A DNA stretch of 64,000 nucleotides from Bacteroidota bacterium (GTDB lineage: Bacteria > Bacteroidota > Bacteroidia > B-17B0 > Aurantibacillaceae). Position numbers and translations under genes: made by a program. The DNA lies in assembly GCA_030681615.1 (NCBI GenBank), contig JAUXSA010000001.1, positions 1-64,000 on the forward strand. Direction: 5' to 3'. Positions 6,131-38,162 of this stretch are shown piece by piece; position 1 is the stretch's first letter, and the number at the start of each line of letters is the position of its first letter. The notes beneath the pieces were generated by a model that had not been told where the DNA came from, searched no databases, and worked only from the letters and a program-made list of their open reading frames with translations.

Positions 6131-9100
6131 CTGTTTATACCTAAAAAAATAGTTTTTCTTTTTATTTGTTTGTATGGCCTTGAAACTTTTTCTCAGGTAT
6201 ATTCTTTTAAAAATTTTACTGAGGACGATGGCCTTTCTCAATCTTTTATTTACGATATAGTTCAGGATAGCAGGGGTTTTTTAGTAGTTGCAACCGGTGA
6301 TGGCCTGTCTACTTATGGGGGACATGGTTTTAAGGTTTTTAAAACAGCCAGCGGTCTTGCTGAAATTGGTATTTCAGCATTATATAAGGATAGCAAAAAT
6401 AAAATATGGTTGGGCCACTTTGAGGGCGGCGTAAGTTATGTAATGCCTTCAGGCAGGATCGGCAAAGTTAATTTTAAAGAGCCATTAAGCGCAAAATTGA
6501 TCCAGATATTAGAGATCAGTCCTAATAATTATATTTTTTTAAAAAAGAATATTGGTATTGTATTATACAATTCGGCAACCGGTGCTGTAGACAACATCCA
6601 GGATGAAAATTTTATGGAGACCATTTCCATTCTTGCAAATAAAGAAGAATTATTTTTATTAAAACCGGATGGTGTTTATTCAATAAAGATTAAAGACCTG
6701 TTAGCCAAAAAGTATCAGATTGAACAAAAAATAAAATTAAAAGAGGGAGCCTGTATGCAATACAGTGTTGCAAAAGATAATCTTTTAGTTGCCGATAACA
6801 GCCTTGGTATGCTAACATATAGAGCTGACGAAAATCTTTCTGCTCTTGATACTTTTAAATTACCGAGACCAAATGGATCAATTTTTACGAAAATAATTGC
6901 AGATAGATTCTCGAATATATATGCTTCAACAACAGATGATGGCTTCTTTAAAATAAATCCTTCCTCAAAATTAATTAAAACCTATACTATAAAAAATGGA
7001 TTAAACTCAAATGCCATCCAAAGTTTGTTTATAGATAGGGAAGATAATTTATGGGTTGGTACTTATGGTTATGGTTTACAGCAATTAAATAACGAGATGT
7101 ATAGTTATCGTTTCATTAAAGATAATGAAGGCATAAGATTACCAATCAATTCAATTGTAAGGTTAAATGGTAAAAATGCTGTGGCAACGGATAAAGGAAT
7201 GGGTTATATTAACGAGGATAAAGTTGATTTTGCTCCAAACCCTCAATTGATCAATAAAAAATTCAAGAACTTGATGTTGTATAACAATAATTTCATTTTT
7301 TCAACAGTTGATGGCGAACTTTTTAAAAGCGATACATTATTTAAAACAGTAACCAAGATCCCTTTATTTACTACAAATCAAAAACTGGTCATCAACTCAT
7401 TAAATTCCGATCTAAACAATATTTACGCCTGTACATCGGCTGGTTTATATGTAATTGATCCAACTAATTTTCAATATACTGTTCTAAATACCGAAACCGG
7501 ATTATTACATAATAACGTAAAATTTGTTTTTATAGATTCTAAAAAACATATGTGGATTTGTTCGCAAGGAACGCCGATCTATTATGTAGATAATTTAAAG
7601 GATATTAAAATGTTTGATAATGTAGAAGGGTTAAAACTCTTTAACATTCAAACCATTTGCGAAGATAAAAATAAGAATGTCTGGATATCATCTTTAGGCG
7701 ATGGCGTTTTTAAATTTAACGGAAGAAAGTTCGACAACTTCACTGTTGCTGACGGCTTAAAATCAGCATACAGTTACGGCATTGTTGCAGATTATAAGAA
7801 TGGTATTTGGGTAACACATGCAAATGCAATTTCGTATAAAAATAATAATAAGAAGAACTTTAACAGAGTCGGCGGAAATTCCGATCTGCTCCAAAATAAT
7901 TTTATGGAGAATTCTACTTTTTACGACAAAAAGGAAAATGAGATCTTTTTTGGAACTTCAGAAGGAATTGTAAGGATAAATACTTCCAAACAACGCTTCA
8001 ACGAAATAGAACCTGTTTTAAATATTTTAAACATTACAATTAATGGCGATAGAGTAGAAAGCTTAAACGATACTGTCCTTAAATATAGTTCTTACGACTT
8101 TTCGTTCGAATTTATTGGCGTTTGTTTATCAGAACCGTTAAATGTTAAGTACAGATACAAACTTAAATTGGAAGGCGCAGAGGATAATTGGGAGATAATT
8201 ACCAGCGAAACAAGAAAACTGAATTTTCCTAAGCTAAAGAACGGCGATTATACATTTATGATATATGCCGCCAATAATGATGGCTTATGGAATTCAGAAC
8301 CACTTCAATATAGATTTAAAATTGATAAACCTTTTTGGCAAAAGTGGTGGTTCATCATTACCAGCATTTGCGGTTTAAGTTTTGCCATATTTATTGGAAT
8401 TAAAATAAGAACAAAAAAATTAATTCAAAATCAAAAAGAATTACAACATAAGATCGATCTTCAAACCATTGAGATACGCACGGAAAAAGAACATATCTCA
8501 AAAATGGCAGAAGAGCTTAAAGTGCTTCACGATGACCTGAAGGACAGTATTAATTATGCAAAAAACATTCAAAGTAGTATCATACCAACACTAGATGGAC
8601 GCCTTGGCCCTGTGGATGTTTTTGAGCACTTCCAGCCGAAAGATGTTGTAGGTGGTGATTTCTTTGGATTTTATATTTTACCTGATAATAATAAAATTGT
8701 TTTTCTTGCAGATTGCACCGGACATGGTGTGCCGGGTGGATTTTTAACAGTAATCGCCAAAGCATTATTAGATAAGATCGTTCTTGAAATGAAGATCTAT
8801 CACCCAAAAGATATTATCTATAAATTAAACTCCGAGTTTAGGATGTTCTTTGGTGGTAATTCAACGGATGAGAATGTAAGATACGAAGGATTGGTTATTT
8901 CGTTCTGTCATATTGATTATACTAATAAAATGGTAGACATTTGTGTGGCCGGAAATCCTTTCTATTACTCAACAGATAATAGCGCTGTTATAAGCTATAA
9001 AGGCAGCAGAAGTTCTGTAGGTTACGAAGAAAATATGGGCGAGCTTAATGTACTGCAGATCCCGATCGAAAGCGGCCTTAGATTATATATGTTCTCTGAT

Positions 9101-33832: not shown

Positions 33833-36280
33833 ATGTACAACCTGCAACAAATAGCAGAGATCACAACTTCTAAATTTATTGGCGGCACTAATAATAAGAT
33901 CAGTATTTTTTTAAATGATAGCCGTGCATTACAATCGCCGGTAGATACTTTATTTATTGCATTAAAGACCGGACGCAATAACGGACATAATTATATTGCC
34001 GATCTTATTGAAAAAGGAGTAAAGTCGTTTTTAATACAGGAAAATGAATTTGATATTTCTAAATATAAAAATGCAGACGTTTCTTTTGTAGTTTCACAAG
34101 ATCCATTAAAAGCTATTCAAAAGTTGGCGGCATTTCATCGCAAACAGTTTACTATTCCTGTAATTGGTATTACTGGGAGTAACGGCAAAACAGTTGTAAA
34201 AGAATGGTTGTACCAGCTGTTAAAAAATAATTTTTCTATTTGTCGCAGTCCAAAAAGTTATAACTCACAGATTGGTGTTCCTTTAAGCGTTTTAAATTTA
34301 AACCATACGCACACACTGGCAATTTTTGAAGCAGGTATTTCTTTACCTAACGAAATGGATGCTTTGGTAGAAATTATACAACCAACCATTGGTGTGTTTA
34401 CTTCTATAGGCTCTGCTCACGATGAAGGCTTTGAAAGCAGAGAACAAAAAATAAATGAAAAATTAAAATTAATTGCGCATTGCGATAAAAAGATCATAAA
34501 CGGTTTACATAAAGAGCAGTTGCAGGCAGAAATTTTAAGTAAGACTATTCTTGTTTCTGAATTTGATGATGCCGATCTTAAAATTTCTTTTAAAGACGAT
34601 ACGTTAGAATTAAAAAGTTCAACCGCATCTCACCAGTTCAAAATTCCATTTTCTGATAAAGCATCAATCTTAAATGCTTCTACCTGTGCGGCAACATTAA
34701 TGCAGTTAGGTTTTAAAGAAGCTGATATTGCGCAGCGTTTGGCTTTATTGCAACCTGTTGCGTTGCGTTTGGAAATTAAAACAGGAATAAACAATGCTTT
34801 AATTATTAATGATTATTATAATTCAGATATTGATTCTATAAAAATTGCGTTGAATTATTTATCGCAACAAAACCGCCGTGTACGTAAGATCGTTATTGTG
34901 TCTGATCTTGAGCAGTCGGGTATTTCGGCACACACGCTTTATAAACAACTGGCCGAACTTTTTGCGCAAAACAAAATAGATCTTGTAGTTGGTATTGGCA
35001 AAGAGATCTCAAACCACAAACCTTTATTTAAAGCCAATTCTCTTTTCTTTTTTGATACACAGAGTTTTATTAATCAATTTAACTTAATTAATTACCAGTT
35101 TAGCGAAGCGAGTATACTTTTAAAAGGCGCGCGCAGTTTTGGTTTCGAGAATATCAGTCGTGTGCTTCAATTAAAAAGTCACGATACCGTTTTTGAGATC
35201 AACTTAAATAAATTAATTAATAACGTTAATTATTACCGCTCGCTAATTGCGCCCAATGTAAAATTAATGTGCATGGTAAAAGCCATGGGCTATGGCAGCG
35301 GCGGCGCAGAGATCGCAAAAACATTGCAACACATTGGCGTTAATTACCTGGCAGTGGCTTATGCGGACGAAGGAGTAGAGTTGAGGCAATCGCAAATTAC
35401 CTTGCCAATAATGGTAATGAGTCCGGAGGAAGATGCGTTGGAAGATATTATTAATTACCAGTTAGAACCGGAGATCTATAGTTTTAAAGTACTGCACGCA
35501 TTCATAAAAAAACTGGATGCGCTAGGAATAACAGACCCATACCCTGTGCATTTAAAGATAGACACCGGCATGCACCGTTTGGGTTTTGAAGAAAACGATC
35601 TTGAAAAATTAGTTTCAGAATTAAAGAATTTCCCGCAGCTAAAAGTGCGCTCTGTATTTTCTCACTTGGTGGGCACTGATAATTCAAATTTGGATGATTT
35701 TACAAATGAGCAGATGCGCATGTTTGAAAAAGTATCTTCTGCTATTGAATTGGTTTTAGGTTACTCTGTTTTAAAACATATTTGTAACTCAGGCGGCATT
35801 ACACGTTTTAAGAATGCGCATTACGATATGGTGCGCCTTGGCATTGGTATGTATGGCATTGGCGTTAACAGCGCAGAACAAGCGCAGTTAGAAAATGTGG
35901 GCAGTTTAATTACCCGCATTAGTCAAATAAAAAATGTTTCGGCATCACAAACCGTTGGTTATAACCGCAATGGTAAATTAGATAAAGACACAAAAATAGC
36001 AACCATACCTATTGGTTATGCAGACGGTTTTAGCAGAGCTTTGGGAAATGGTAAACACGGTGTTTATATTGCCGGTAAATTTTGCACGACCATTGGTAAC
36101 ATTTGTATGGACATGTGCATGGTGGATGTTACAGATATTAATTGCCAGGAAGGCGATGAAGTAATTATTTTTGAGAACGCCGAACAAATAAATGCCATGG
36201 CCTCAGCATTAAATTCTATTTCTTATGAAGTGCTTACGAATGTTTCGGCGCGGGTGAAGCGCGTTTATGTGCAGGAGTAA
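33833..36280 (+). CDS. Bifunctional UDP-N-acetylmuramoyl-tripeptide:D-Ala-D-Ala ligase / alanine racemase
   Basis: MurF-like GITGSNGKTVVKEWLYQLL; alanine racemase half with MCMVKAMGYGSGGAEIAKTL, KIDTGMHRLGF, GNICMDMCMVDVT. Confidence 0.95.
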   Translation: MYNLQQIAEITTSKFIGGTNNKISIFLNDSRALQSPVDTLFIALKTGRNNGHNYIADLIEKGVKSFLIQENEFDISKYKNADVSFVVSQDPLKAIQKLAAFHRKQFTIPVIGITGSNGKTVVKEWLYQLLKNNFSICRSPKSYNSQIGVPLSVLNLNHTHTLAIFEAGISLPNEMDALVEIIQPTIGVFTSIGSAHDEGFESREQKINEKLKLIAHCDKKIINGLHKEQLQAEILSKTILVSEFDDADLKISFKDDTLELKSSTASHQFKIPFSDKASILNASTCAATLMQLGFKEADIAQRLALLQPVALRLEIKTGINNALIINDYYNSDIDSIKIALNYLSQQNRRVRKIVIVSDLEQSGISAHTLYKQLAELFAQNKIDLVVGIGKEISNHKPLFKANSLFFFDTQSFINQFNLINYQFSEASILLKGARSFGFENISRVLQLKSHDTVFEINLNKLINNVNYYRSLIAPNVKLMCMVKAMGYGSGGAEIAKTLQHIGVNYLAVAYADEGVELRQSQITLPIMVMSPEEDALEDIINYQLEPEIYSFKVLHAFIKKLDALGITDPYPVHLKIDTGMHRLGFEENDLEKLVSELKNFPQLKVRSVFSHLVGTDNSNLDDFTNEQMRMFEKVSSAIELVLGYSVLKHICNSGGITRFKNAHYDMVRLGIGMYGIGVNSAEQAQLENVGSLITRISQIKNVSASQTVGYNRNGKLDKDTKIATIPIGYADGFSRALGNGKHGVYIAGKFCTTIGNICMDMCMVDVTDINCQEGDEVIIFENAEQINAMASALNSISYEVLTNVSARVKRVYVQE

Positions 36281-36289
36281 TTATCCTGA

Positions 36290-36634
36290 TCAAGCTTTTC
36301 TAACAAATTCAGATTTTAGCGCCATTGCTCCAAAGCCCTCTATCTTGCAATCAATATTATGATCGCCATCCGTTAAACGTATATTTTTAACTTTTGTTCC
36401 TGCTTTTACAGATTTGGGAGCGCCTTTTACCGGCAGGTCCTTAATAACTACTACCGAATCTCCATCGTGTAGTTCGTTTCCATTGCTATCTACTATTTTT
36501 TTTGTGATTTCCCCTGATTCAGCAACTGCCTCTTCAGGATTCCATTCATAAAAACATTCAGGGCAGGTAACTAAAGACCCGGTAGAATAAGTGTATTCAC
36601 ATTTGCATTTCGGACAAGCAGGATATTCATTCAT
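36290..36634 (-). CDS. yjdM: YjdM/PhnA-like zinc ribbon protein
   Basis: [27 protein letters not shown]...[26 protein letters not shown]. Confidence 0.9.
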
Positions 36635-36711
36635 TTTAAAAAAATAATTGGTTCACGAAAGTATAAATTTTCTTTAAATAAAAGCAATTTTCTTTTTTTA
36701 ATTCGGGCGAT

Positions 36712-36765
36712 CAAGTCTTTACCAGTGTTTTGGAAAGGGTGAAGCGGGTTTACGTGCAGGAGTAG
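36712..36765 (+). pseudogene. Fossil 3' end of an alr/murF-alr gene
   Basis: caagtctttaccagtgttttggaaagggtgaagcgggtttacgtgcaggagtag encodes QVFTSVLERVKRVYVQE*, against EVLTNVSARVKRVYVQE* at the genuine gene end (36227-36280). Confidence 0.75.
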
Positions 36766-36786
36766 TTTTTCTGCATTAATTTGCTG

Positions 36787-36968
36787 CTAACGTTTGGCGG
36801 CTAGGCGCAAGGGCGCTTATGAAACATCCTTTTTCTATCCGCCGAAATGTTTATTAAATGTACAAATGTTTATTAGCAAAGCCAAACGTAAATAAATATC
36901 TGCGTAGCAGGCAAAAGATTGGCTTTGCGATCTACCGGTCCGCCCGCCTTGCACTTAGCCGCTGTTAG
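36787..36968. repeat. Imperfect palindrome, attC-like site 1
   Basis: Left arm ctaacgtttggcggctaggcgcaagg (36787-36812); right arm ccgccttgcacttagccgctgttag (36944-36968); inner perfect 10-bp IR gcaaagccaa (36876-36885) / ttggctttgc (36919-36928). Confidence 0.65.
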
Positions 36969-37168
36969 TAGTAGGTTGCGTAAACAGCCGGACGCGCCTG
37001 GTCGTCGGGTTGTGGTTGCGCGTCTGCTTATAAAAACAATTTTTGAAACGGTCGTTTGTGCTTCGTGAATCTGGGCTGCAGCTTTTGAGTCAGAACTTTT
37101 TTTGCGAAAATACTCTCTGTGGTTAGACTACTATTTGTATTAGCTTATTTAATTTCGTATTTTTAATT

Positions 37169-37882
37169 ATGATTTTAAACGAAGTGTATCATTATTTCGA
37201 CACGTCCTGCGAGCCAAAGATTATTGGCGTCAGAAATGGTATTTATCAAGCCGAGTTCAACGAATCGTGTTTTGTGCCTAAAGCGAAGTATGATGAGTAC
37301 TATGATGCTGCCATCAAAAAGAACGCTAAGCAAAAAGCAAACATAAAAAAGTTTATCAAAGGAATTCGCAGACTCGACTTATTAAAAAGCGCTAAGCTTA
37401 CTGACTTCCTTCAGCCTTGCCCTCACATTCCCAGTGTTAACTTTTTGGTTAGTGAATCTCTAAAGGCGATTTTTGAAGAACATAAATTAGGAAATAGTTT
37501 TTTACAACCAACTGTTGTTCGAAGTCTTAAAACAGGTGAGAAACATCATTACAGTTTTTTTTACCATAATAGCATCAAGTTTGACGACATAATTTTTGAG
37601 AGCAGCGAAATCTATCAGCGAACAGTCTTTGCAAAAAATGGTAAACTACAAACGCGAGACAAATTATATCCCATTCGCAACCGGGCGCATTATGACGAAC
37701 TGAGCGAAAAGTTTTTTCTGCCACCTTTTTCAAAAATTTGCGTTGATTCGAAGTATAAGCAATTTGACTATATTGAAGTATATACTTACAAGTTCGTATC
37801 ACAGAGGCTTAAAGAAAAGCTAATTGCAGGTGGAATGACTGGTATAGAATTTGGTACGCGTGTTCAACTCGTATTTGATTAG
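37169..37882 (+). CDS. Orphan 237-aa protein, possibly immunity-like (Imm11/DUF1629-like C-terminus)
   Basis: Single long ORF between two palindromes; C-term VSQRLKEKLIAGGMTGIEFGTRVQLVFD resembles the end of Imm11-type proteins. Assignment tentative. Confidence 0.55.
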   Translation: MILNEVYHYFDTSCEPKIIGVRNGIYQAEFNESCFVPKAKYDEYYDAAIKKNAKQKANIKKFIKGIRRLDLLKSAKLTDFLQPCPHIPSVNFLVSESLKAIFEEHKLGNSFLQPTVVRSLKTGEKHHYSFFYHNSIKFDDIIFESSEIYQRTVFAKNGKLQTRDKLYPIRNRAHYDELSEKFFLPPFSKICVDSKYKQFDYIEVYTYKFVSQRLKEKLIAGGMTGIEFGTRVQLVFD

Positions 37883-38038
37883 GAATTATTAAAAGGAAAT
37901 AAACTCAACGCCTTAAAGCCGTTTGAAATCAAACGTTACACATCTTCATTGTTCAATTTTTCACAATGTGAAGTTAGTCCACTTAAAAGTTTTTATCTAC
38001 CGAGATCTTATCAACTGAGAATTGTCCGCGACTTACTA

Positions 38039-38117
38039 CTAACTCCCTTATACCCGCTATAAATATGCGCCCATCCTGCAATTTTCGCAAGATTGGCGCT
38101 ACTATGTAGCGGTTATT
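38039..38117. repeat. Imperfect palindrome, attC-like site 2
   Basis: ctaac...ccgctataaatatgcgcccatcctgca-attttc-gcaagattggcgctactatgtagcgg-ttatt. Hairpin arms pair imperfectly over about 27 nt. Confidence 0.65.
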
Positions 38118-38162
38118 AAATGTATCGCTATTTTTATAAATAATCAAGTGGCTATGTTATAT

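Follow-up and report, generated by a model that had tools for sequence, protein, structure and literature searches.

A probable integron-like system of Bacteroidia and its one-cassette, recombinase-less remnant in a member of the Aurantibacillaceae

In class 1 integrons the integrase gene is divergent from the cassette array. The IntI integrases are defined by a specific domain, an insert around patch III (PMC9668308; PMC8138268), and the attC sites of their cassettes carry R boxes, an unpaired central spacer and extrahelical bases within a length of 57-142 nt (PMC2727003). In the Bacteroidetes only In0 had been found earlier, and one complete integron, in Salinibacter, was then reported with IntegronFinder 2.0 (PMC9024848). 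In this study, we analyzed a locus in a stretch of 64,000 nucleotides (hereafter the window; assembly GCA_030681615.1, contig JAUXSA010000001.1, positions 1 to 64,000 of the forward strand) from a Bacteroidota bacterium of the family Aurantibacillaceae, where an open reading frame (ORF) lies between two imperfect palindromes. The locus is very probably the remnant of an integron-like system of Bacteroidia, with one cassette left and the recombinase lost. No earlier description of this system was found in the open-access literature, most subscription papers and all bioRxiv preprints being outside the scope of the search.

Parts of the locus in the window

The first-pass annotation of the window had described two palindromes with an ORF between them and a perfect 10-bp inverted pair, and all of these were recovered where it had placed them. 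Its proposal that palindromic recombination sites delimit a gene cassette was upheld, while the orientation had to be reversed: the cassette and its array lie on the minus strand, which makes the 237-aa ORF antisense. Palindrome 1 is present as annotated, with its bounds corrected to run from TAAC to GTTA and its reading moved to the minus strand. The parts of the locus are the following:

36788-36967, minus strand: attC-like hairpin site (palindrome 1), 3' end of the cassette, 180 nt from TAAC to GTTA
36791-38043, minus strand: cassette, 1,252 bp when measured from the G in the GTTA of attI as far as the attC crossover, starting with GTTAGTAGTAAG and ending with CTACTACTAAC plus attC
37169-37882, plus strand: 237-aa ORF, antisense inside its cassette
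38040-38120, minus strand: attI-like hairpin (palindrome 2), ending in GGGTATAAGGGA/GTTA
38134-38151, minus strand: relic of the 3' end of a recombinase gene, 18 bp, CCACTTGATTATTTATAA

Palindrome 2 had been taken for a second attC site. This candidate was rejected because a covariance model of palindrome 1, made from six copies, gives no match there, whereas the attI motif described below does, in the exact form GGGTATAAGGGAGTTA (38040-38055, minus strand), the sole exact match in the whole genome. Beyond it, the relic CCACTTGATTATTTATAA is one base off CCATTTGATTATTTATAA, the last codons of the intact recombinases of relatives (ending in SPFDYL and the stop codon), and its stop lies 90 nt from the attI GTTA, within the spacing of intact loci. 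Given an attI and a recombinase relic at the right spacing, the window is read as an attI, one cassette and its attC-like site, from which the recombinase has been lost.

The cassette ends still form a perfect 10-bp inverted pair, GTTAGTAGTA (36964-36973) and TACTACTAAC (38034-38043). Palindrome 1 scores 163 bits with covariance model R1, and its spacer 1/spacer 5 geometry was also picked up by an independent detector. Folded singly, palindrome 2 is clear (z = -3.24) and palindrome 1 modest (z = -1.33), the latter not being significant by itself, and an Rfam scan of the locus returned a chance match only. The 237-aa ORF has no homologue in Pfam, NCBIfam, PHROGs or the genome contigs searched.

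Vertical inheritance of the locus, named in the annotation as a possible refutation, was rejected: relatives that share the alr/L-PSP neighborhood have neither an attI nor a cassette between alr and the L-PSP gene, and in one of them the two genes almost touch. Therefore, the insertion appears specific to the lineage of the window.

Whether the copy in the window is live is a separate matter. The locus could be a dead fossil, an inert attI, cassette and site with no enzyme left in the cell, and we give this about even chances. The absence of the insertion from relatives is in keeping with it, as are the survival of the recombinase 3' end as a relic and the absence from the genome of any member of the recombinase family at E <= 1e-60, the 18-bp relic apart. 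On the other hand, the cassette ends are still a perfect pair and palindrome 1 is among the best-scoring sites of the genome, so that the recombinase was lost recently or its work is done by an enzyme in trans; besides, the assembly comprises 199 contigs at 97.8% completeness, and the recombinases of relatives are often at contig ends. A dead copy is compatible with the remnant of an integron-like system proposed here.

Beside the locus, the murF-alr 3' end is duplicated (36225-36288 and 36710-36773, 78% identical), the copies lying on either side of a PhnA/YjdM-like gene (36290-36634, minus strand). A relative (G016) has the same PhnA/YjdM-like gene with a more decayed second copy of the murF-alr 3' end. 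This repeat looks like an older insertion in which the gene end was replaced, separate from the cassette.

A family of attC-like sites and its cassettes

BLAST of palindrome 1 against its own genome retrieved four more copies (67-75% identity), one of them with a second copy beside it on the same contig, and the covariance model found 14 copies there at E <= 1e-5. Among the 41 genomes searched, this one included, 30 have attC-like copies, up to 37 per genome and frequently in tandem; the recurrence that the annotation had called for as a check is thus present. The simple pattern CTAACGT..GTTAG was in no excess over the control in the genome of the window and, therefore, the short palindrome by itself is uninformative.

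From the sites of array loci a consistent form was derived, the reverse of the one first proposed: ..YTAAC, 1 nt (A/C) and the stem on one side, and stem', 5 nt (AAAAC/AAACC) and GTTA-N4-YAAK on the other. In the 112 sites with clear ends, the arms pair at 81.5% of positions with spacers of 1 and 5, in comparison with 52.6% when arms are shuffled among sites (maximum 59.4% in 1,000 shuffles). The sites are 70-250 nt long, with peaks near 125 and 160-190; their spacers are asymmetric, and an A.C mismatch is conserved at position 14 of the stem. The canonical R-box consensuses RYYYAAC and GTTRRRY were found in 5 and 7 of these 112 sites, respectively, and both together in none. In length, in spacers of 1 and 5 and in the absence of canonical R boxes, the sites differ from those of integrons, and the spacing of their spacers is not that of known attC.

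If these sites delimit cassettes, the bases after GTTA at the start of a cassette should be complementary to those before TAAC at its end, since both meet in the excised circle. Neighboring site pairs were complementary at all five bases in 46 of 64 cases, with a mean of 4.25/5. When partners were shuffled the mean was 1.92 (at most 2.47 in 2,000 shuffles), and between the two sides of a single site, which are unrelated, it was 1.83/5. The complete cassettes (n = 51; median length 948 bp) have their longest ORF in sense in 49 cases, in antisense in one and none in the other. In addition, a gene from the array of another species has a 76% identical relative adjoining sites in the genome of the window (contig 62), and one cassette gene was found in two separate arrays of a third genome. 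The cassette is a modular unit, and each site is the junction of two cassettes.

These comparisons bear on the idea that the palindromes are a dispersed repeat (a miniature inverted-repeat transposable element, a terminator or a repetitive extragenic palindromic element) that flanks accessory genes by chance. Scattered hairpin copies are what such a repeat would give, but a repeat copied as a unit would produce the opposite pattern, with matching sides of a site and unrelated cassette ends. The strand and place of the sites are also fixed relative to the recombinase, and we regard this explanation as extremely improbable.

Recombinase, attI and arrays in relatives

In array-bearing relatives the arrays are adjoined by a tyrosine recombinase of 360-390 aa with invariant catalytic residues (R231, H321, R324, H347, and Y356). 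Its family is present in 32 of the 41 genomes of the genus and in 166 of 296 Bacteroidia genomes; the annotation's suspicion of a divergent, integrase-remote cassette system agrees with this linked family, of which the window keeps only the relic. The type of enzyme it had suggested looking for, IntI or XerCD, was not the one found. The recombinase shares the catalytic fold of XerA, XerC and XerD, and the closest solved structures are XerA 5hxy and IntI4 2a3v, but its scores are below the NCBIfam cut-offs for XerA, IntI, XerC and XerD (187-206 bits, the IntI cut-off being 265). The alignment to IntI4 splits in two and leaves the IntI insert unmatched, and there are about 95 additional N-terminal residues. 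In a tree of 73 proteins, a quick one in which the tool flags long branches, 37 of the 38 family members cluster (SH-aLRT 99), apart from 21 IntI (100) and 14 Xer proteins (99), including those of the same genomes; one long-branched member (G021 contig 2) was unplaced. Unlike Xer proteins, the family is also linked to cassette arrays and has the extra N-terminal domain.

The N-terminal domain (residues 1-92; 7005-7280 in locus L090) carries the motif RWS.T...W..P and has nothing above cut-off in Pfam. Its best fold matches, the HARP domain of SMARCAL1 and the N-terminal half of XPB, are weak (all E above 0.1, best 0.15) and therefore a lead only.

In distant families, too, the sites lie downstream of the recombinase and on its strand. 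In the 45 loci from GTDB, which include cultured Flavobacterium species and Algoriphagus, 87 sites are downstream of the recombinase in its own orientation, 3 are upstream in that orientation and 5 are antisense, and 36 of 48 neighboring pairs are complementary at 4 or 5 of 5 bases; since a few of the loci come from genomes already sampled (L264 is from G016), this set is not wholly independent. F. terrisoli PT-3, which like F. saccharophilum DSM 1811 is a cultured carrier, has 11 sites in a row. Sites were seen at 24 of the 30 recombinase loci with more than 3 kb downstream; not every locus has them.

The attI-like element was found by searching upstream of the first site for a matching cassette start. 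It consists of a hairpin followed by (G)GTATAAnnnA/GTTA and lies mostly 80-114 nt past the recombinase stop. The motif, defined on some of the 35 loci tested, is present in 25 of them and in 2.1% of control windows; when the search range was widened slightly, it was present in 35 of the 45 GTDB loci. Across the genus there are 39 exact matches (6 for the reversed control), some of them plain chance, inside genes. Modular cassettes, hairpin sites, an array abutting the recombinase and an attI at a fixed place are all features of this system.

A second layout of the same system is seen on contig 2 of G021 (L081-L084), where a diverged 356-aa recombinase points away from an array of about 20 sites and a putative attI lies 160 nt from it. 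Orphan attI hairpins with no adjoining recombinase also occur in relatives (L202, L222, L221, L230, L225, L228, and L229), each followed by a cassette-like start, and in L229 the identity to a recombinase-linked copy (L219) starts within the recombinase's final codons, a situation close to that in the window.

With integrons (IntI/attI/attC; class 1 and Vibrio chromosomal) this system shares a recombinase gene, an adjacent attI, an array whose cassettes mostly carry one ORF in sense, sites that are imperfect palindromes with an unpaired spacer, complementary cassette ends and a GTT conserved beside the presumed crossover. The attI lies beside the recombinase gene in relatives, and in the window beside the relic of that gene. 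In contrast to integrons, the recombinase has no IntI insert and is longer at its N-terminus, the attI-like site is past the recombinase stop with the gene pointing toward the array, and the attI, too, forms a hairpin and carries a GTATAA motif. The system would work like an integron, yet two defining features of IntI integrons, the IntI-type integrase and the R boxes, were tested for and are absent. As in clusters of attC sites without an integrase (CALIN; two or more attC sites separated by less than 4 kb, with no IntI nearby), the cassette sites in the genome of the window have no integrase beside them, but the window holds a single attC-like site together with an attI-like one, and the sites do not conform to canonical attC.

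The sites could nevertheless be those of ordinary, CALIN-like IntI cassettes with diverged attC, moved by a canonical IntI, the adjoining recombinase being incidental. The logic of complementary cassette ends would be the same, and a true IntI does occur in one genome of the family. Against this, IntI was found neither in the genome of the window nor in the genus, and in only 1 of 89 genomes of the family; 96 of 348 genomes of the phylum carry it, a single one of them in Bacteroidia, a class in which 166 of 296 genomes carry the new family. Moreover, 87 of the 95 detected sites are downstream of, and in the same orientation as, the new recombinase, and none of the 112 sites has both R boxes. 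This explanation is very unlikely. The lone true IntI of the family (L098, G043 contig 26) is in a genome that also has a broken recombinase of the new family (contig 2, internal stop codon).

Proposed mechanism and significance

In an intact locus the tyrosine recombinase gene comes first, an attI-like hairpin follows about 100 nt beyond its stop, and the array comes last; its cassettes, most of them with one ORF, run the same way as the gene, and every one closes with an attC-like hairpin site. The recombinase would cut adjacent to GTT and excise cassettes as circles, the complementary ends together restoring a complete attC-like hairpin, and it would insert them at attI, probably via a single folded strand in the manner of IntI. 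Of the recombinase gene in the window only the last codons are left, while the attI, one cassette and its site remain. Several points weigh against this account of the window. Its ORF is antisense, whereas 49 of the 51 complete cassettes have theirs in sense; the relic, at 18 bp, is short; and the recombinase is missing from the genome, so that the link of the sites to it comes via relatives. In addition, recombination at the hairpin sites, which we infer from sequence, and the use of a single strand are both presumed.

More tentatively, and with somewhat less than even confidence, the system may be a second lineage of hairpin-based cassette capture, in which a non-IntI recombinase reads folded sites by its extra N-terminal domain in place of the IntI insert; Bacteroidia would then have integrons of their own, with IntI serving the other classes of the phylum.

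Integrons have been reported as nearly absent from Bacteroidetes, yet more than half of the sampled Bacteroidia genomes carry this recombinase family, many with cassette arrays, which IntI-based searches would be expected to overlook. The arrays thus represent a large unseen reservoir of mobile genes in a major phylum. The system also offers a natural test of the need for the IntI insert in using hairpin sites and, given that carriers in culture exist, it is open to direct testing.
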